A stretch of 35,735 nt of DNA, from NCBI GenBank assembly GCA_030066085.1, contig JASJCI010000030.1:1-35735 (forward strand). The letters run 5' to 3'. Below are positions 25,800 through 35,735 of the stretch, piece by piece. How positions within the stretch are numbered: position 1 is the stretch's first letter; each line of letters opens with the position of its first letter. This stretch comes from Gammaproteobacteria bacterium (lineage in GTDB: Bacteria > Pseudomonadota > Gammaproteobacteria > GCA-001735895). The position numbers and the translations under genes are program-made. Under the pieces are notes generated by a model. The model had not been told where the DNA came from. It made no database searches and saw only the letters and a list, made by a program, of their open reading frames with translations.

Positions 25800-26909
25800 A
25801 TGAGCGAAAACAATCCCTGGACCGAACAGTGGTTCAAGGCGCAACAGCAGTTCGTCGATGCCTGGACCGACATGGCGCGCAGCGGCAACGCCGGCGGCGC
25901 CAGCCAGGCCGACCTGTGGGCGAAGAACTTCGATGCCTGGCGGCGCAGCTTCGAGGGCCGCGGTCAACCCGACGCCGAGGTCGCGCTGCGCAAGTGCATG
26001 GACATGGGACGCGAATATTTCGCCATGGCCGAGCAGGTCGGCAAGCTGATGAGCCAGGGCAGCAACCCGGTGGATGCGATCAACCAGTGGCTGGAGCAAA
26101 TGAAGCAGGCACTGGGACAGTTTACCGGCATGCCGGGATTCAACGGCGCCGCGGTCAACGATTTCATGAAGCAGTGGTTTTCACCGAGCGCCAACTGGCA
26201 GGACATGGTGTCGCAGCTGACCCCGATGAACCAGGCGATGTGGCAGATGCCGGGCATGAATACCTCGGTCTTCAACCTCGGCGAGGCCATCGACCCGCTG
26301 GGCAAGATTCTCGAAGCCCCGGGCGTCGGTTACTTCCGTGAACCGCAGGAGAAACAGCAGCGCGGGCTTCAGCTTGCCCTCGAATACCAGGAAGCCAACT
26401 ACCGCTTCAACCAGGCATTCCTGCGCGTCGCGCTGGAATCCATCCAGGGTTTCCAGCAGCGCCTGCTCGGCCTCGACAGCGACACCATGCCGCAGTCACT
26501 GCGCGAGCTCTACGACCTCTGGGTCGAGGTCAGCGAAACGCACTATGCCGAGTTTGCGATGGGCGAGGAATACCAGGGGCTGTACGGCGACATGGTCAAC
26601 AAGCTGATGACCATGCGCAAGCACTACAGCGAAATGACCGACGATTTCCTGCGCGCGCTGAACCTGCCGAACACCCGCGAAATCGATACCATGCAGGAGC
26701 GCCTGCAGCAGCTGCGCCGCGATAACTTTGCGCTCAAGCGCGAAATCAGCGAAATCAAGGCGACGCTGGCGCAGCTGGTCGGCAAGCCGGCAGCCAAACC
26801 GGCGGCAACCGCCAAACCGGCGGCCAAGGCCGCCGCCGCGAAAAAAGCGCCGGCGAAAAAAGCCGCCGTCAAGAAATCGAAAGTAACCCGAGCCAAAGCA
26901 GGAGCCTGA
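25800..26909 (+). CDS. phaE: Class III PHA synthase subunit PhaE
   Basis: Non-catalytic partner that activates PhaC in class III synthases. 369 residues; begins MSENNPWTEQWFKAQQQF. Conserved PhaE features include GYFREPQEKQQRG and, near the end, a heptad coiled-coil (about 290-327, MQERLQQLRRDNFALKREIS). The last 41 residues (329-369) are almost only Ala, Lys and Pro, like the histone H1-type tail of PhaF phasins; ordinary PhaE proteins of about 355-360 residues do not usually end this way. ATG at 25800 with only a weak GAG upstream. phaC follows after 4 nt. The tail could tie granules to DNA; this is inference. Confidence 0.94.
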   Translation: MSENNPWTEQWFKAQQQFVDAWTDMARSGNAGGASQADLWAKNFDAWRRSFEGRGQPDAEVALRKCMDMGREYFAMAEQVGKLMSQGSNPVDAINQWLEQMKQALGQFTGMPGFNGAAVNDFMKQWFSPSANWQDMVSQLTPMNQAMWQMPGMNTSVFNLGEAIDPLGKILEAPGVGYFREPQEKQQRGLQLALEYQEANYRFNQAFLRVALESIQGFQQRLLGLDSDTMPQSLRELYDLWVEVSETHYAEFAMGEEYQGLYGDMVNKLMTMRKHYSEMTDDFLRALNLPNTREIDTMQERLQQLRRDNFALKREISEIKATLAQLVGKPAAKPAATAKPAAKAAAAKKAPAKKAAVKKSKVTRAKAGA

Positions 26910-26913
26910 CACC

Positions 26914-27981
26914 ATGGAAAACATCCCGTTCCGTTCCGACCGCGTGGTCGACGAGCTGGTGCAGTTCAACCAGAACCTGAGCAAGGGCGTCAAGAACCTG
27001 CTCGACGCGGACGAAATTTCCGCCGGCGTTACCCCGCGCGAGGAAGTCTACAGCGAGGACAAGCTCAAGCTGTATCGTTACCAGCCGTCTACCGGCGTGG
27101 TGCAGAACAAGATCCCTACGCTGATCATCTACGCGCTGGTCAACCGCCCCTACATGACCGATATCCAGGAGAACCGCTCGACCATCAAGGGCCTGCTGGA
27201 CACCGGCCAGGACGTCTACCTGATCGACTGGGGTTACCCGGATCGCGCCGACAAGTACCTGACCCTCGACGACTACATCAACGGTTACATCGACCGCTGC
27301 GTCGACGTGATGCGCGAACGCCACGGCGTCGACAAGATCAATATCCTCGGCATTTGCCAGGGCGGCGTGTTCAGCCTGTGTTACACCACGCTGCACCAGG
27401 ACAAGGTCAAGAACCTGGTGACGATGGTCACGCCGGTCGACTGCAAGACGCCGGACAACATGCTGAGCCACTGGGTACAGCAGATGGACATAGACGCGAT
27501 CGTCGACGCCATGGGTAACCTGCCCGGCGAAATGCTCAACTGGACCTTCCTCAACCTGAAGCCTTTCCAGCTGATGGGACAGAAGTACGTGTCCATGGTC
27601 GACATCATCTCCGACGAAAAGAACGTCAAGAACTTCATGCGCATGGAAAAATGGATTTTCGACAGCCCGGACCAGGCCGGCGAAGCCTTCCGCCAGTTCA
27701 TCAAGGACTTCTACCAGCAGAACAAGCTGGTCGAGGGCGGACTCAGGATCGGCGACCAGGAGGTCAGCCTGAAGAACCTGAAAACGCCGGTGCTGAACAT
27801 TTTCGCTGAACAGGACCACCTGGTGCCGCCAGACGCATCGAGGGCGCTGAAAAAGCTGGTCGGCAGCAAGGATTACACCGAGCTGTCATTCCCCGGCGGA
27901 CATATCGGCATCTACGTCAGCGGCACCGCGCAAAAAACCGTGACCCCGGCGATTTCCGACTGGCTCAACGCCCGCGGCTGA
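26914..27981 (+). CDS. phaC: Class III PHA synthase catalytic subunit PhaC
   Basis: Polymerises (R)-3-hydroxyacyl-CoA into PHA on granule surfaces. 355 residues, the class III length. The lipase-box-like motif GICQGG holds the nucleophile Cys148; Asp301 (AEQDHLVPP) and His330 (PGGHIGIY) complete the triad, each one residue off the Allochromatium vinosum numbering. The Trp-rich segment LIDWGYPDRAD is conserved in synthases. ATG at 26914, with AGGAG lying within the end of phaE, so the subunits are translationally coupled. A strong terminator follows. Short-chain (C3-C5) monomers are expected for this class. Confidence 0.97.
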   Translation: MENIPFRSDRVVDELVQFNQNLSKGVKNLLDADEISAGVTPREEVYSEDKLKLYRYQPSTGVVQNKIPTLIIYALVNRPYMTDIQENRSTIKGLLDTGQDVYLIDWGYPDRADKYLTLDDYINGYIDRCVDVMRERHGVDKINILGICQGGVFSLCYTTLHQDKVKNLVTMVTPVDCKTPDNMLSHWVQQMDIDAIVDAMGNLPGEMLNWTFLNLKPFQLMGQKYVSMVDIISDEKNVKNFMRMEKWIFDSPDQAGEAFRQFIKDFYQQNKLVEGGLRIGDQEVSLKNLKTPVLNIFAEQDHLVPPDASRALKKLVGSKDYTELSFPGGHIGIYVSGTAQKTVTPAISDWLNARG

Positions 27982-28080: not shown

Positions 28081-29001
28081 TCAGCCCGGCACGTGGTAGC
28101 GATAGTGCGACGACCAGGTCATGGCCTCGCCCGGCAGCAGCCGGATGCGGATAAAGGGTTCGGGACAGGCCGCACGTTCGACCGCCCAGAACACCATGCG
28201 CTCGACCGGCGCATCGCCGCGAAACGCGACCGCGGCACCGCTGCGGTCGTTGCGCACCAGCGCGGCATTGTAAAATCCCGGATCCCTGCCCTCGAACAGC
28301 TCGATCCACAGCGACCGTTCACCGAGGGCTTCACCACAGTCGATCCGGTTACCGCGAAACCAGGCGATATCGTCGATCGAGCGTGGCGCGTCGCTCGCGA
28401 ACGGAAATTCCACGCTGTAATCGGGCCCGTAGGGGCGATCGTCGATCAGCGTGAAATTATGATTGTAATGGTCGATGTCGATTGCGCGGGTACCGGTGTT
28501 TTCGAGCTGGCGGGTCAACACGAGCCCGGGTTCATCGGCCATCAGCTGAACACGTTTCAGGTAGCGGTAACCCCAGCCTGAATCGGTCACCAGCTGCTGC
28601 TCGAAATCGATCGAAGCGGCGGTGGACTCGATCCGCCAGTCACCCGCGTGCAGGATCGGGTAAGGCGCGTCGAAGCGATAATCGGCGCTATCGAGCCGGC
28701 GCAGCAGGCCAACCCCGATCTTGACGAAGGCCTCCCCTGCCCCGGCTTCGGCGTAACCCATTGGGGCAAACATCGCGAATTCCTCGGCCGGGCCCGCGAG
28801 CGCATCGTGCCGCACGGGATCGTGCCGTGCGTGCAGCGGCGCGTAAAAGCGGTGCCCTCGCAGTTCGACCCGCGCAACGATGCCGGACCAGTCGAAACGG
28901 CTTCCTCGATAATAGCCGCGCCCGGCATCCGGCAGGTAGACCAGCGCCTGCAGCTCGCCGTTGTCGAGCACCACGCTCGGATAGGCGGCATCGGGTGTCA
29001 C
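28081..29001 (-). CDS. Galactose-mutarotase-like (aldose 1-epimerase) protein
   Basis: 306 residues with the look of a mutarotase-type beta-sandwich: DNGELQALVYLPDAGR at the N-terminus, GWGYRYLKRVQLM, and a central DHYNHNFTLID in which the histidines sit where aldose epimerases have catalytic His. Start is GTG at 29001, overlapping the GH1 stop by 4 nt (GTGA). No signal peptide, so cytoplasmic. It probably interconverts anomers of a sugar released by the neighbouring glycosidases. It is diverged from GalM, and a different sugar-binding role is possible. Confidence 0.7.
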   Translation of the reverse strand: MTPDAAYPSVVLDNGELQALVYLPDAGRGYYRGSRFDWSGIVARVELRGHRFYAPLHARHDPVRHDALAGPAEEFAMFAPMGYAEAGAGEAFVKIGVGLLRRLDSADYRFDAPYPILHAGDWRIESTAASIDFEQQLVTDSGWGYRYLKRVQLMADEPGLVLTRQLENTGTRAIDIDHYNHNFTLIDDRPYGPDYSVEFPFASDAPRSIDDIAWFRGNRIDCGEALGERSLWIELFEGRDPGFYNAALVRNDRSGAAVAFRGDAPVERMVFWAVERAACPEPFIRIRLLPGEAMTWSSHYRYHVPG

Positions 29002-30416
29002 GCGCGGCCCTTCGCGGCCGCATCGACCGCGCGAATCGAAGCACCCTTATCGGCAAAGCCTCGTGGGTTGTCATCAACCACCGCGTTGGCGGCGATCACG
29101 TGGCTGTACCAGTAGGCCGAGTCTTTCGGCGTTCGCCGCTGGCTGGCGTAGTCGACGTGCACCATGCCGAAACGTTTGGCGTAACCCTCGGCCCATTCGA
29201 AATTATCCAGCAGCGACCAGGCGAAGTAACCGCGGCAATCCACGCCGTCCTCGATCGCGCGCGCGTACTCGTTCAGGTAGCGGCGATGAAAATCGATCCG
29301 CGCCGCATCGTCGACGCGACCGTCGCGCACCACGTCTTCAGCGGCGAAGCCGTTCTCGGTGACTACTACCGGCAGGTCGTAACGCTCGGCGAAAAACTTC
29401 GGTGCCCAGTACATGACCTCGGGCGTCACCGGCCAGCCCATCGCCGAACGGGTCATATCGTCCCGCTCGACCAGGTCGAAGCGGTCCTCGTCCCGCGCGC
29501 GCAGGTAGCTGCCCCAGTAGATGTTGCAGGCGAGAAAATCCAGCGGCTGGCAAATGGTTTCCAGGTCGCCGGAACGCAGCGCGGGCAGATCGTCGGCGAA
29601 CAGCTCGAGCCCGTCCGCGGGATAACACCCGCGCAGCATCGGCTCGCACAACCAGCTGTTGTTGAAAAAGTGTCGCTCGCGCACCGCGAAGCTGGCGCGG
29701 CGCGCGGTCTCGATGTCGAGCTCGTGGTCGCGCTCGGGGACGTAGACGAAACAGGCCTGTACCGCGCTGACGCTGGGCGCTGCCAGCGCGTGCGCGCGAA
29801 TCGCCTGTACCGACTTGCCGTGTGCCAGCAGCGTATGGTGGCCGGCGAGCAACGCTTCGCGCATACCCATTTGCAGACCCGGCGCGTGGCTGCCGTCGAG
29901 GTGCCCGAGGCCGATGTAGATTTGCGGCTCGTTGAGGGTGCACCAGCGGGTTACCCGGTCGGACAGGCGTTCGACGACCAGGCTCGTGTAGTCGGCGAAC
30001 CAGTCCGCGCTGTCGCGGTTGAGCCAGCCGCCGCGGCAATAGAGCTCGTAGGGAAAATCCCAGTGAAACAGCGTCACCCAGGGTTCGATACCGCGCTCGA
30101 GCAGGGCGTCGACCAGAGAATCGTAAAAATCGAGGCCGCGCTCGTTGATCCGGCCGACACCCTCCGGCAGCACGCGCGGCCAGCTGATCGAGAAACGGTA
30201 GGCGCCGAGGCCGATTTGCGCCATCAGCGCGACGTCGTCGCGATACCGGGCTACGTGATCGCAGGCGTTCTCCCCGGTATCGCCGTTGGCAACCCTGCCC
30301 GGCTGGCGGTCGAACATGTCCCATACCGAGGGCCCGCCGCCGGCGCGCCAGGCGGCGCCCTCGACCTGGTAACTTGAGGTGGCGGCACCCCAGGCGAAAT
30401 CCTGCGGAAACGGCAT
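28998..30416 (-). CDS. GH1 beta-glucosidase
   Basis: Retaining glycoside hydrolase of family 1, 472 residues from MPFPQDFAWGAATSSYQVEG. Acid/base Glu163 in CTLNEP and nucleophile Glu354 in VVTENGF are both present; SLLDNFEWAEGY is the conserved aglycone-region motif. The frame is open to a GTG at 30464, but that falls inside a hairpin and the family N-terminus begins at the ATG at 30416. No signal peptide: it should cleave oligosaccharides in the cytoplasm. Third gene of the operon after the barrel protein and lipoprotein, followed by the mutarotase-like gene with a 4-nt overlap. Likely substrates are beta-linked gluco-oligosaccharides. Confidence 0.94.
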   Translation of the reverse strand: MPFPQDFAWGAATSSYQVEGAAWRAGGGPSVWDMFDRQPGRVANGDTGENACDHVARYRDDVALMAQIGLGAYRFSISWPRVLPEGVGRINERGLDFYDSLVDALLERGIEPWVTLFHWDFPYELYCRGGWLNRDSADWFADYTSLVVERLSDRVTRWCTLNEPQIYIGLGHLDGSHAPGLQMGMREALLAGHHTLLAHGKSVQAIRAHALAAPSVSAVQACFVYVPERDHELDIETARRASFAVRERHFFNNSWLCEPMLRGCYPADGLELFADDLPALRSGDLETICQPLDFLACNIYWGSYLRARDEDRFDLVERDDMTRSAMGWPVTPEVMYWAPKFFAERYDLPVVVTENGFAAEDVVRDGRVDDAARIDFHRRYLNEYARAIEDGVDCRGYFAWSLLDNFEWAEGYAKRFGMVHVDYASQRRTPKDSAYWYSHVIAANAVVDDNPRGFADKGASIRAVDAAAKGRA

Positions 30417-30450
30417 GGCCTCGGTTGCCCTGTTGATACTTCGAATCGAT

Positions 30451-30479
30451 GCGCTGCCCGGCACCGGAGCGGGCAGCGC
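30451..30479 (-). promoter_or_regulatory. GC-rich hairpin before the GH1 gene
   Basis: 10-bp perfect stem GCGCTGCCCG/CGGGCAGCGC with a 9-nt loop, between the lipoprotein stop and the GH1 start. No U-run follows on the minus strand. It could lower read-through or protect the upstream mRNA 3' end, giving unequal expression of envelope proteins and cytoplasmic enzymes. Confidence 0.5.
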
Positions 30480-30495: not shown

Positions 30496-31188
30496 TCAGA
30501 GCGGGAAACTGAAGATCTCGTTCACCTGGTCGTAGGTGTAACCCCAGTCTCCGACTTCCTTGGCGGCTTCGTCCGCGTTGATGGCGGGATCCAGATTGAA
30601 CAGCGGGTCGGTGGAGCCTTCCTGGTTACCGCCACCGGCCGGGTTGAACAGGTTTTGCCCGGTCGCCTGGTTCAGGTTGCGCGGCACGATATTACCGCTG
30701 TTCGGCGGCTCCTCGCGAAACCTTATCGAGTCGAAGAAGTTATCCAGGTAGGCGCGGTAGGCCTTGAGCGCCTGCTGGCGCGTCAACTCGCTGTTGCTCG
30801 AACCCCACAGGCGCTGCAGGCTCAGCGCGACGTTATACTGGTTTTCGCCCGGAATACCCGCGCCGCGGACCAGGGCCGTGGCCCAGAGGTAAAAGCGGGC
30901 AGTCTCGGACGGCGCGTCGGCGGCCAGGTCGAACTTGGTCTCCTCGGTAACGATCGAGAACCGGTAGGGATTGGCCGGGTCTTCGAGTACGCACCGGTCG
31001 GGGAAGATCCCGATGTTGGCACAGTAAAGATCCAGCGCTACCGTGTCGTCGAACGCCAGGCCGACCGTGTTGCGATCGTCGCCGTCGTCACTGTCCACGC
31101 CGCAGGCGGCGACCGCGGTCAACAGCAGGGCGGCCAGCGTGACGCGCCAGCCGTTTGAAAGTTTGTTTCGATTCTTCGTGACATGCAT
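30496..31188 (-). CDS. Lipoprotein of unknown function
   Basis: 230 residues. The N-terminus has basic residues, a hydrophobic stretch (LAALLLTAVAA) and the lipobox V-A-A-C with Cys29; the next residue is Gly, not Asp, so outer-membrane sorting is predicted. The mature part starts with an acidic linker (DSDDGDD) and contains Leu/Ala-rich helical stretches and a segment with DLYCANIGIFPDRC, two cysteines that could form a disulfide. I do not recognise a family. ATG at 31188 with GAGG 8 nt upstream, 29 nt after the barrel-glycosidase gene. Co-transcription and predicted outer-membrane location suggest it works with that protein. Confidence 0.85.
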   Translation of the reverse strand: MHVTKNRNKLSNGWRVTLAALLLTAVAACGVDSDDGDDRNTVGLAFDDTVALDLYCANIGIFPDRCVLEDPANPYRFSIVTEETKFDLAADAPSETARFYLWATALVRGAGIPGENQYNVALSLQRLWGSSNSELTRQQALKAYRAYLDNFFDSIRFREEPPNSGNIVPRNLNQATGQNLFNPAGGGNQEGSTDPLFNLDPAINADEAAKEVGDWGYTYDQVNEIFSFPL

Positions 31189-31217: not shown

Positions 31218-34200
31218 TCAGAATCTGAGAGTGAAGTAGGTCTGGATTTCGAACATGTAGTCGTTTTCACCATCCTGGTACTCGTCTTCTGCCGACAGTT
31301 CGTCGAGCTCGCGGTAGAGCAGCTTGATCCCGTACCGGCTGGAACGGTCCTCGTCGGCCAACGCGTCGAGCAGCCGCGCGTATTCAAGCTTCAGCTGCAG
31401 CGGGTAAACGATATTGAACTGTTCCTGGAAGTCGTAGGGTCCAAAATCGTCGACCTTGACGTAGCCCTCGTAGATATGGATCTTGTCGACGATCAGCTTG
31501 GCCTCTACGGCGTAGTACTCAAGCGTTTCCTCGTCGGGCACGCCGGTCGACTGCTTTTCACCGATGTAGACATCGTACACCTGCGTCAGGCCCTTGCGCG
31601 GATTCAGCACCAGCTTGCTCTTGAGCTGCCAGACGTCTTCCTCGGCGATGCCTCCCCCGAAAGGTACGTTGGAGCGCGTACCCTCGAAGAAGAACAGTTC
31701 GGCATCCGTGTCGGTGCCGTAACTGGTCGCGGTCAGGCCGAGATTGAACGCCATCGGCGCGTCCTCGATCATGTCGACGTTCCAGGCGTAAAAGTACGTG
31801 GCCGGCGTCGGGTCGTAGGTGTAGATCAGCTCCAGCGAGGTTGCCTCCCGGTTATCGAGTACGGCAAAGGGATCTTCCTCGCGGTTGCGCGAGTCGATGC
31901 CCGGGCTCAGGTTGGGACCGGTGGTGACCGCTTCGATATTGGGGTTCGCGTCGACCACGTTTTCGCGGTACAGGAACCGCGGGTAGATCGTGTGCACGCC
32001 CCAGGTCTTGCGCACGCCGCCTTCGATTTCGTACTTGTTGCCGAGCGACGAGTACGGCAGGTCCGTGCCCCACTCGCGATGCGGTTCACCGCCGTCGGCA
32101 ACCAGTCCGGCGAGGTTCAGGCCAATGTAACTCTCGGTCGTACTGCCCTTGTTGAAAGTCAGGGTCGACTTGATACCGAGCGTGTCTTCGTAATCGATCT
32201 GGTCGACCTTGATTTCGCCGCTTTCGACGCGGTCATAGTCGTCACCCTCACGCTCGGTATTGGCAACGATGCCGCCGATTTCGAGCTGCACGTTTTCCAG
32301 CGGATCGAACCGGCCATACAGGGTCACCGCGCGATACTGCCGCTCGGTAGCCTCGGTAAACGACTGTGACTCGTCGCGGCGCGCGATATCCTCGAACATC
32401 ACCACGGAGTACTTGTCGTTGTGGCCGAACTGGTACTTGATGATCGTCGCCGGGTTCGCGCCCCAGTAGATTTCCGGGCCGGCAACAATCTTCAGCCCGT
32501 CGGTTTCTCCCTTGCCGACATACTCGAAACCGTAGGGCGCTTTCTCGTTCCAGATGTCCTGCCCCTCCATGTCGGTGGTTTCGTACAGCAGGCCGAAGTA
32601 GTCGCCCTCGTAGCGCCAGTGATAGCGCGGTACGTGGTAAAACGCGTTGAGATCGTAGCCCGTGGTGGTATAGGACGCCTGGAAGTCGTAGATCTCGATG
32701 CGCTCGTTATCGGTGATGTCCACTTCCTCGCGCGAAATCTGGATCGCACCGAGCTCGGTAGTGGTCTCGATGCCCTCGACGGTCAGCGTTTCACCGCGAT
32801 CGCCGTAACGCAGCTCGAAGTTGCTGTCGGCAACGTTGGCCAGCAGGTTGACCGTCATGTCGCCCTTGATGTCGCGCGTCGGTTCGAAAGCGAAATCGAA
32901 GAACGCCATCTGGCCGTCACTGAAGGTCAGGCCGTCCTCGCCGTCCTCGTCGATGTCGCTGTCGAAACCCTGCACGAACATTTCACCGGTAAAGCTGCCG
33001 CCGACCAGGCGAAACTTGTTGTTTTCCTGATTTTGCGCCTGGATCTTGCGAATGTCGCTGCGCAATTGCATCGTGTCCATGTCGATGCCACCGAAGGATG
33101 CATTGATCGCGGTGCGCGACATGCCGTAGGGGTCTTCCTTCCAGACTTCCTTGAGTACGTCGTAGGCCATGCGCGGCTCGGCAATGTAGACGCCGTCGTC
33201 GTTGATATCGCCAAGGCGGGCCACGCCGAACCATTCCTCGTTCATGTTGTTCTGGCCCTCGACGTGGTCGAACTTGTAGCCGCCGTTGGCCCAGGACGCG
33301 GTGCGATCCTGGATATCGAGGTTCTCGGTCTGGCGGTATTTCCACCATTCGTCACGCCATTCGAACACGAAACCGCCGATCGCGTTGCCTTCCTCGCCGT
33401 TGCCGTAGCTCTTGTTGTAAATTTCCTGCCACTGGCCACGCAGGTAATGCGCCTGCGCCGGCTCGTCCTCGGCGAAGGTGCGCGCGTTGAACGCATCCGA
33501 GCCGAACTCCATGAACACGATCGGGCGGTCGAAACCTTCCTTGACGTCGCGCCACATGGATACGTTGTTGGCCTTGTCCTCGAAGCTGATGCCGCGGTAG
33601 GCGTTGATCCCGAGCACGTCCATCTCGGAGGCGTACTCGGCGATCAGGTCGAGATACTGGATATCGCCGTTGACGATCGTGAACAGGTGCTCGGGCGCGA
33701 TTTCCTTGGCCTCGCGTATGGTTTCGCCGAACAGGCTGTAGAGGAACTTGGCCTTTTCCCGGTTCTGCTCGCCGACCGGCAGATCCTCGATCTCGAAGCT
33801 CGACCAGGACAGGCCGTAGTTGCTCTCGTTACCGAGCGCGAACATGAGCACACCCGGCACGTCCTTGTAGGTGCGAACAACCTCGAATACCTCTTCCTTG
33901 AGCACCTCGCGCGTGCGCTGGTCGGAGTAATCGGTGAACGGGACCCAGACACCGTCGATACTGGCGCCGTAACGACCCATCAACGGGTTGATCACCGAGT
34001 AGATGCCGTACTTTTCGTAGATGTAGGTCACCCACTTCGGCGGGATGATCGTGAACGAACGGTTGGCGGTGACCCCGGCCGCGGCCATCAGGCCGAAGTC
34101 GTGGTCGAGTACCGCGCGAATCCGCTCTTCCGGCTCGCTCCAGAGATTGAAGGTATAGTTCGCGCCGCGCGGCGTATAACCCCAGACGAATCCCTTGACG

Positions 34201-34364
34201 TAAAAGTCGCGGCCATCGACCTGCAGCTTCCAGCCGTTTTCATCCTGCAAGGTCGTGACCCGCTCGTATGCCGCCTGCGTACTCGTCGCAAACGCCAGCG
34301 CGGCCGCAACCGCACACAGGCCAAAGTACCTTTTCGCAATAGCGATAACACCAAGTTTCGCCAT
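31218..34364 (-). CDS. Secreted TIM-barrel glycosidase fused to an outer-membrane beta-barrel
   Basis: 1048 residues. A signal peptide (about 1-32, ending STQAA) is followed by a catalytic-type (beta/alpha)8 domain (about 35-415) resembling clan GH-A enzymes such as the GH2 catalytic domain. FALGNESNYG carries the likely acid/base Glu180, and IVFMEFGSD the likely nucleophile Glu286. A short polar, helix-prone linker (about 428-450) leads to some 590 residues of alternating aromatic/polar strands rich in Asp, Glu, Tyr and Gly, ending in YFTLRF. The C-terminal Phe with alternating pattern is the BAM recognition signature of outer-membrane barrels. First gene of a four-gene operon. The exact GH family and the barrel's strand count were not determined. 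Confidence 0.8.
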   Translation of the reverse strand: MAKLGVIAIAKRYFGLCAVAAALAFATSTQAAYERVTTLQDENGWKLQVDGRDFYVKGFVWGYTPRGANYTFNLWSEPEERIRAVLDHDFGLMAAAGVTANRSFTIIPPKWVTYIYEKYGIYSVINPLMGRYGASIDGVWVPFTDYSDQRTREVLKEEVFEVVRTYKDVPGVLMFALGNESNYGLSWSSFEIEDLPVGEQNREKAKFLYSLFGETIREAKEIAPEHLFTIVNGDIQYLDLIAEYASEMDVLGINAYRGISFEDKANNVSMWRDVKEGFDRPIVFMEFGSDAFNARTFAEDEPAQAHYLRGQWQEIYNKSYGNGEEGNAIGGFVFEWRDEWWKYRQTENLDIQDRTASWANGGYKFDHVEGQNNMNEEWFGVARLGDINDDGVYIAEPRMAYDVLKEVWKEDPYGMSRTAINASFGGIDMDTMQLRSDIRKIQAQNQENNKFRLVGGSFTGEMFVQGFDSDIDEDGEDGLTFSDGQMAFFDFAFEPTRDIKGDMTVNLLANVADSNFELRYGDRGETLTVEGIETTTELGAIQISREEVDITDNERIEIYDFQASYTTTGYDLNAFYHVPRYHWRYEGDYFGLLYETTDMEGQDIWNEKAPYGFEYVGKGETDGLKIVAGPEIYWGANPATIIKYQFGHNDKYSVVMFEDIARRDESQSFTEATERQYRAVTLYGRFDPLENVQLEIGGIVANTEREGDDYDRVESGEIKVDQIDYEDTLGIKSTLTFNKGSTTESYIGLNLAGLVADGGEPHREWGTDLPYSSLGNKYEIEGGVRKTWGVHTIYPRFLYRENVVDANPNIEAVTTGPNLSPGIDSRNREEDPFAVLDNREATSLELIYTYDPTPATYFYAWNVDMIEDAPMAFNLGLTATSYGTDTDAELFFFEGTRSNVPFGGGIAEEDVWQLKSKLVLNPRKGLTQVYDVYIGEKQSTGVPDEETLEYYAVEAKLIVDKIHIYEGYVKVDDFGPYDFQEQFNIVYPLQLKLEYARLLDALADEDRSSRYGIKLLYRELDELSAEDEYQDGENDYMFEIQTYFTLRF

Positions 34365-34697: not shown

Positions 34698-35735
34698 TCA
34701 ATTCAGTCGCAGCCGCACCGTCTGCAGCGCGTTCGCATCGATGTCGATCCGGGCCTGCCGGTCACCGATCTTCAGGCGGTAATCCACCGCTGTATCCCGT
34801 GTATTCAGAACCTGCACCGACAGCAGCCCGCTCGCGTCCAGCGACGCACAGGCGTGCAGGTCGTCTTCGCCGAGACCGGCCAGTCGACGCGCGGTCCCGA
34901 CCGCGCGATCGCCCGGCCGGATCGTGCGGCTCAACTGTTTCAGCACGTGGAAAACCGGCGTGTAGTAGACATGACCGGAATCGGTGTCGATCATGATCGG
35001 CGCGCCGCAGTAGTTGCCGGCGTGGTTCGGGCCGCCGTTGTGATCGAGCACCACGTTCCAGTCGATCCAGCCCGCGAGCCAGTGATTCAGGCTGACGATG
35101 ATATTGCGCGCGTAGCGATGCACCGGGGTATACATCGGGTGATCCTCGGCGACCACGCCTTCCCAGGTTGCGCTGTAGGCCCAGTCGCTGGCATTCGGGC
35201 CCCACCAGAAATCGTCGTTGTCGAACCAGCCCGACTCCTTGTAGCCCGCGGGATCGAGCACGCCGGCCGGCGCGTCCTTGCCGAGGTCGTCGACACAGCC
35301 CTCGGTATGCAGGATCGAGTATTCCGGGTACTTCGCGTGGACTCGTTCGAACACGTCTTCGTAAACCTTGAAGCTGCTTTCGTACCAGTGTACCGCGGCC
35401 CCGCTGACGTAACGCGCCGCGTCCGGGTCGGTGTAAATCACGTCGGCCCAGTACTCGAGATCCGGGCGGCTGTGGTCGAGCATCAGCAACTCGGTTTGCG
35501 CCCAGTCGCCCCGCTGCAGTTTCGGCCCGAGGTGATACTTGATGAAATCGCGCTGGCTTTCGGCGCTGAAGTGCATGCTCTCCCAGGAACCGTTGTTGCC
35601 GAGCGGTTCGTTGACCGGCGTCAGCCCCCAGATGTCGACCCCCTCGTCGCGGTAGGCCTCGAGGTAGCGCAGCAGGTAATCGGCATAGGTCGGCTCGTGC
35701 TCGGGCTTGAGCGAACCGCCGGTGCCGTGGAAGCC
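34698..35735 (-). CDS. GH30 glycoside hydrolase (partial, 5' end outside window)
   Basis: The C-terminal 345 residues of a family 30 retaining glycosidase; the frame stays open to the right edge, so the start is missing. The acid/base Glu is in GLTPVNEPL (codon 35609-35607), the nucleophile Glu in SILHTEGCVDD (codon 35303-35301). LNHWLAGWIDWNVVLDHNGGPN and a C-terminal beta-sandwich (from about YTPVFHVLKQLSR onward) are typical of the GH30 glucosylceramidase / beta-1,6-glucanase branch. The ATG at 35576 is internal and not the start. It lies upstream of the barrel glycosidase operon in the same direction. Bacterial relatives often act on beta-1,6-glucan or side chains of laminarin; substrate here is inference. 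Confidence 0.93.
   Translation of the reverse strand, partial: GFHGTGGSLKPEHEPTYADYLLRYLEAYRDEGVDIWGLTPVNEPLGNNGSWESMHFSAESQRDFIKYHLGPKLQRGDWAQTELLMLDHSRPDLEYWADVIYTDPDAARYVSGAAVHWYESSFKVYEDVFERVHAKYPEYSILHTEGCVDDLGKDAPAGVLDPAGYKESGWFDNDDFWWGPNASDWAYSATWEGVVAEDHPMYTPVHRYARNIIVSLNHWLAGWIDWNVVLDHNGGPNHAGNYCGAPIMIDTDSGHVYYTPVFHVLKQLSRTIRPGDRAVGTARRLAGLGEDDLHACASLDASGLLSVQVLNTRDTAVDYRLKIGDRQARIDIDANALQTVRLRLN

Follow-up and report, generated by a model that had tools for sequence, protein, structure and literature searches.

The window, that is the whole stretch of 35,735 nucleotides analysed here, carries on its reverse strand a single unbroken reading frame of 1048 codons with an ATG start, which is present in single copy in the host genome (Table 1). 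The encoded protein starts with a Sec signal peptide; then come a domain some 375 residues long, a helical linker and a stretch of about 600 residues made up of strands. The signal helix (residues 2-28) is followed by STQA/A, strands and helices succeed one another in TIM-barrel order between residues 36 and 407, two helices (417-425 and 429-444) make up the linker, and the strands span residues 451 to 1047, the protein ending in EIQTYFTLRF. The full-length AlphaFold model, built with 51 sequences, reached a pLDDT of 85.

Table 1. Positions, in the window, of the fusion gene, its parts and the adjoining genes.
Feature	Position	Strand	Remark
GH-A glycosidase / outer-membrane beta-barrel fusion, 1048 aa	31218..34364	(-)	
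Sec signal peptide, residues 1-31, no lipoprotein	34272..34364	(-)	lipobox-like motif only in 2/51 relatives
Clan GH-A TIM-barrel domain, residues 34-407, distantly related to GH158	33144..34265	(-)	
N179-E180, predicted general acid/base motif	33825..33830	(-)	aligns with N136-E137 of BuGH158; invariant, 51/51
E286, predicted nucleophile	33507..33509	(-)	aligns with E220 of BuGH158; invariant, 51/51
Insertion past last TIM strand, residues 338-382, strongly conserved	33219..33353	(-)	
Helical linker, residues 408-450, poorly conserved	33015..33143	(-)	33-50 residues in relatives
Predicted 26-strand outer-membrane beta-barrel, residues 451-1048	31221..33014	(-)	
Predicted extracellular loop L4, residues 577-610, conserved, aromatic-rich	32535..32636	(-)	
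Predicted extracellular loop L5 (YWGANP), residues 632-638, nearly invariant	32451..32471	(-)	
C-terminal beta-signal EIQTYFTLRF	31221..31250	(-)	
Small lipoprotein, 230 aa, 29 bases downstream of fusion	30496..31188	(-)	next gene in 58/70 relatives
GH1 beta-glucosidase, next gene past lipoprotein	28998..30464	(-)	
GH30 enzyme, endo-beta-1,6-glucanase-like	34698..35735	(-)	5' part lost at contig end

An earlier sequence-only reading had proposed a signal peptide, a TIM barrel, a linker and an outer-membrane barrel in one chain, with catalytic glutamates at positions 180 (GNESN) and 286 (MEFGS). This anatomy proved correct in every point that could be checked, including the coordinates of the frame and the exact positions of both residues, and confirms that an enzyme and an outer-membrane barrel are joined in one protein. 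Two other explanations were discarded: a frameshift or assembly chimera is excluded by full-length relatives in isolates and metagenome-assembled genomes of many phyla, and a C-terminal half made of a string of soluble beta-sandwich domains is excluded by the barrel seen in both AlphaFold models and in barrel-only fold searches. The linker has in many relatives the look of a short coiled coil (for example INELDMELYSLKGVIREL in L015), resembling that of some trimeric porins.

The nearest solved structures to the TIM domain are the GH158 and GH157 laminarinases and GH2 enzymes, which match it at Z about 27. The alignment pairs N179, E180 and E286 with N136, E137 and E220, the catalytic residues of the laminarinase BuGH158, whose mutation abolishes activity (PMC7157763). 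The three residues of the fusion are invariant in all 51 relatives. The arrangement is that of clan GH-A, in which strand 4 of the TIM barrel is followed by N-E and strand 7 by E. At the profile level the domain matches the GH158 structures 9oro (E 2e-8) and 6pal (E 1e-7), and hhalign against GH158-like proteins encoded in the neighbourhood gave 99.6 % over 288 columns; comparison of the single sequence to GH158 reached an E of only 0.0014. In Pfam the only match was to the GH2 TIM barrel (PF02836), at 18 bits and below the curated cut-off of 21, and the NCBIfam search returned no match. Public annotation, in a plasmid record, says only 'glycoside hydrolase family 2 TIM barrel-domain containing protein'. 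We therefore regard the N-terminal domain as a clan GH-A enzyme related to GH158 and as a candidate member of that family.

The fusion is like the endo-beta-1,3-glucanases BuGH158 and GH158(Pro) (6pal, 9oro) in TIM fold, N/E/E catalytic residues and profile similarity, whereas these enzymes are stand-alone, lie beyond easy pairwise similarity and differ from the fusion in its conserved insertion at residues 338-382. This insertion carries the motif WWK...ASWxNGGY...NNMNEEW; its strong conservation and the partly low confidence of the model in this region are an unusual pair; perhaps it becomes ordered only in contact with substrate, metal or the barrel.

The barrel modelled alone (residues 447-1048) gave a pLDDT of 89 and a pTM of 0.83, in agreement with the outer-membrane barrel of about 590 residues proposed by the sequence-only reading. 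Without exception its leading structural matches are beta-barrel membrane proteins, the majority from outer membranes of bacteria, and include AlgE, OccK porins, FimD/PapC and MtrB; a family missing from the match lists was not counted as evidence. FimD/PapC and MtrB match the whole length of the barrel. AlgE, the best partial match (Z 17), and the Occ porins, which score nearly as high, cover only about 270 residues. Both the barrel and its strand number are AlphaFold predictions: 26 membrane strands were counted by hand on the predicted structure, an even number, which compares with 26 in MtrB, 26 in LptD and 24 in FimD/PapC. The median length of the connections is 16 residues past odd strands and 3 past even strands (p = 2e-4). 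The model thus has the features of an outer-membrane beta-barrel, namely a signal peptide, an even strand number, loops that are long outside and turns that are short inside, and an aromatic beta-signal at the C-terminus.

None of the 51 barrels from the relatives matched Pfam and no related sequence was found in the PDB, so that by sequence this is a barrel without a Pfam family or a relative of known structure. No plug or receptor Pfam match of a TonB-dependent transporter or SusC was found in the full fusion or in the 51 barrels, and the N-terminus is occupied by the glycosidase; such transporters have 22 strands, against 26 predicted for the fusion. The sugar porins LamB, OprB and ScrY have 16-18 strands against the 26 predicted here; no Pfam match assigns the fusion to them and the structural similarity is partial.

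The even strand number and the asymmetry of the loops imply that both ends of the barrel are periplasmic, the normal outer-membrane topology, and the N-terminal domain should consequently be periplasmic as well, short of being threaded through the pore. Such threading would make the protein a surface-displayed enzyme, its barrel serving mainly to carry the glycosidase through the outer membrane so that it works outside. In fact, the order of signal peptide, passenger, helical linker and C-terminal barrel is that of a type V autotransporter, and 33-50 residues of linker would be long enough to span the barrel. We nevertheless consider surface display unlikely, because the barrel of 597 residues has about 26 predicted strands instead of the 12 of a type Va domain and matches no Pfam autotransporter domain, no part of the mature protein is less conserved than the linker (0.41), and separate secreted GH16 and GH158 enzymes are already present in the loci. 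A mere anchor would also leave the conserved aromatic extracellular loops unexplained: the predicted extracellular loops are more conserved than the strands (0.62 vs 0.56, p = 0.002), as expected of a ligand-specific pore, with the aromatic-rich L4 and the YWGANP motif of L5 as examples. Of the two placements suggested by the sequence-only reading, the cell surface is disfavoured by the 26 strands and the long loops past odd strands, and a position directly at the pore is plausible for its inside mouth. On the predicted topology, the most likely place of the enzyme is at the inside mouth of the pore, not at the cell surface.

Genome contigs were scanned for relatives, which gave 230 matches; the best 80 were retained. 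The two-domain layout recurs at full length in all of these best 80 of 230 that are not cut by a contig end (blastp). Hosts belong to at least eight phyla, isolates and metagenome-assembled genomes alike; they include, in the Gammaproteobacteria, Woeseiaceae, Thiotrichaceae, Thioalkalivibrio and Thiomicrorhabdus and, elsewhere, Mariprofundus, Geobacteraceae, Myxococcaceae, Cloacimonadota, Delongbacteria, Zixibacteria, a spirochaete and Bacteroidota. Three of these genera, Thiomicrorhabdus, Thioalkalivibrio and Mariprofundus (L049, L019, L017), are chemolithotrophs with a beta-1,3-glucan locus, which is unexpected for autotrophs.

With a profile of the barrel only, the fusion was found in 2 of 398 genomes of Pseudomonadota, in 17 of 395 from the class of Flavobacterium aquaticum and in 51 of 195 from the phylum of Pyxidicoccus. 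All complete matches lay in frames of at least 1041 aa and the shorter ones were fragments, several of them at contig edges; the barrel was therefore never seen apart from the enzyme, and no barrel without enzyme was present in these three sets of genomes, fragments aside. The fusion occurs once per genome in the 13 genomes examined, is patchy in the host genus of the window (4 of 31 genomes) and had no relative in the viral contigs searched. In a maximum-likelihood tree the sequences cluster by phylum, with 8 changes against a minimum of 7, a pattern that fits one old fusion and little recent transfer.

The survey of the gene neighbourhood took in 42 loci flanked on each side by at least 5 kb, genes being counted approximately, by phmmer similarity to representatives. 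GH16 enzymes were present in 37 of these well-flanked loci, the small lipoprotein in 34, the GH149 phosphorylase in 21, GH30 in 17, GH17 and GH1 in 15 each, parts of ABC importers in 14-18 and an MFS symporter in 11; bona fide GH158 proteins are encoded as separate genes in 8 of 42, and GntR/LacI regulators are among the genes of the loci. The identity of GH149 is certain (NF058639 at 1716 bits and a match to 6hq6). The joint occurrence of glucanases, a phosphorylase or glucosidase, an importer and a regulator marks these loci as clusters for the utilisation of beta-1,3-glucan, a sugar of algae and fungi. The families of large neighbours that were shown included no recognisable TonB-dependent receptor or SusD; the large neighbours left unassigned carry carbohydrate-binding modules, GH3 or housekeeping domains. 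Fold, catalytic residues and gene neighbourhood all support the action on beta-glucans that the earlier reading claimed; the substrate itself is inferred.

In the window the GH1 beta-glucosidase gene lies 31 bases past the lipoprotein gene, and the GH30 gene precedes the fusion. The end of the contig (35735) falls inside the GH30 gene, a GH149 gene is found at the edge of another contig (C10) of the host genome and a 1533-aa GH16 frame on a further one (C45); the glucan locus has probably been split by assembly. Genes for the PHA synthase subunit PhaE and a PhaC-like hydrolase (25800-27981, (+)) adjoin the glucan genes in convergent orientation. In Bacteroides finegoldii (NZ_OY725931.1, L133 11867-22903) the fusion is accompanied by a lipoprotein, GH16, a fimbrillin and BglX, and neither SusC nor SusD is present in this annotated locus. 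The record is labelled as a plasmid, yet it carries a valine-tRNA ligase gene and rpsA, and may be a mislabelled piece of chromosome.

The composition of the loci also bears on the direction of transport. Periplasmic enzymes such as AlgL, BcsZ and PelA trim or proofread other exopolysaccharides, and the barrel could similarly secrete a beta-glucan made by the cell, with trimming or proofreading left to the glycosidase in the periplasm; the structural match to the alginate exporter AlgE and the presence of chemolithotrophs among the hosts point in this direction. AlgE, however, matches over part of the barrel only, with the Occ porins scoring nearly the same; no glucan synthase was recognised among the neighbours scanned, and the loci hold cytoplasmic GH149, importers of the MFS or ABC kind, regulators of sugar type and glucanases of extracellular type. 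Export is for these reasons very unlikely.

The small lipoprotein is encoded directly after the fusion in 58 of the 70 loci with sequence there, and 58 of 61 copies adjoining the fusion have a lipobox. Its family has no Pfam or NCBIfam match and is recognised by the conserved core VL.DP.NP...FY.WAT.LA...GE.Q...QA..AY...LDNF; in Bacteroidota a longer lipoprotein takes its place and is followed by GH16. This protein is a possible lid or plug of the barrel. A barrel closed by its loops or by the lipoprotein might conduct nothing and serve only to anchor the glycosidase, or to position it, within the periplasm or a complex. A barrel so wide must indeed be partly blocked for the membrane to stay tight, and the long conserved loops and the adjacent lipoprotein could do so. 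Still, a conserved barrel of 597 residues would be a costly anchor where lipidation would suffice, and no other path for oligosaccharides across the outer membrane was recognised in the loci; we therefore give little credence to a closed barrel.

Surface display, export and a non-conducting anchor are each weaker than the import-pore reading. According to the latter, which we consider fairly likely, the fusion is the outer-membrane entry component of beta-1,3-glucan (laminarin-type) utilisation, a wide pore with a glycosidase at its periplasmic mouth. GH16 and similar enzymes would release beta-1,3-gluco-oligosaccharides outside the cell, and these would be admitted by the barrel of about 26 strands as a wide, substrate-lined pore with its conserved aromatic loops. 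At the periplasmic mouth the GH-A domain would cut the incoming chains by retaining double displacement, with E180 as acid/base and E286 as nucleophile. The products would be kept from diffusing back and would be of a size suited to an MFS or ABC importer of the inner membrane, so that import would be coupled to trimming; the cytoplasmic GH149 phosphorylase and beta-glucosidases would complete catabolism. The adjacent small lipoprotein would be the likely partner, as lid or plug. Against this reading, a passive pore supplies no energy for uptake and GH16 was not found in 5 of the 42 loci.

A broader proposal, which we put forward tentatively as something short of probable, is that the fusion represents a widespread TonB-independent machine for glycan uptake, made of a giant substrate-specific pore, a glycosidase at its inner mouth and a dedicated lipoprotein, in which periplasmic cutting makes diffusion one-way and which replaces SusCD in the beta-1,3-glucan loci of many phyla, gut Bacteroides included.

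Laminarin accounts for a carbon flux that ranks among the largest in the ocean; current models have glucans cross the outer membrane through TonB-driven SusCD pairs or through ordinary porins. An enzyme-pore fusion conserved across at least eight phyla would add a further route and would allow trapping by hydrolysis at a pore to be put to the test. We found no description of an outer-membrane enzyme-barrel fusion in the open-access literature, and the protein is probably an undescribed outer-membrane gate for glucans. It has in common with the SusCD and TonB-dependent importers of laminarin PULs the outer-membrane uptake step and loci with GH16, GH30, GH17 and GH149; it differs in its fused enzyme and its barrel of about 26 strands, lacks a plug domain and any Pfam match to TonB receptors, and no SusC/D was recognised in its loci. 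The fusion would explain glucan clusters without susCD. Kuhaudomlarp et al. describe GH149 clusters with ABC transporters, others with TonB receptors and Bacteroidetes CAZyme clusters without susCD, in passages that make no mention of the fusion protein (PMC5827456). A study of Woeseiaceae reports laminarin PULs with GH149 and GH158, a SusC gene being present in only seven (PMC12175321).

Large barrels (MtrB, LptD, FimD/PapC) and sugar porins (LamB, ScrY, chitoporin) belong to the same fold class as the barrel of the fusion but have no detectable sequence relationship to it. To our knowledge, none of them has a glycosidase attached. GluM, a homologue of the receptor Oar, can be likened to the fusion by its description, as a myxobacterial outer-membrane barrel with glucanase activity. 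GluM of Corallococcus is described as an outer-membrane beta-1,6-glucanase (PMC10971235).

The sequence-only reading had held that enzyme and channel are normally separate proteins; this stands with an exception in the inner membrane, the MFS-GH17B of Formosa (FORMB_24740), for which the authors propose a coupling of hydrolysis and uptake and of which they state that a transporter-CAZyme fusion of this kind is otherwise undescribed (Unfried et al., PMC6246565). It is the closest precedent. Both proteins are encoded in laminarin loci and unite a transporter and a beta-1,3-glucan hydrolase, the latter a predicted activity in our fusion, in one chain; MFS-GH17B is an inner-membrane helical MFS carrier with a C-terminal GH17 domain, whereas the fusion described here would be an outer-membrane beta-barrel with a GH-A, GH158-like domain at its N-terminus.
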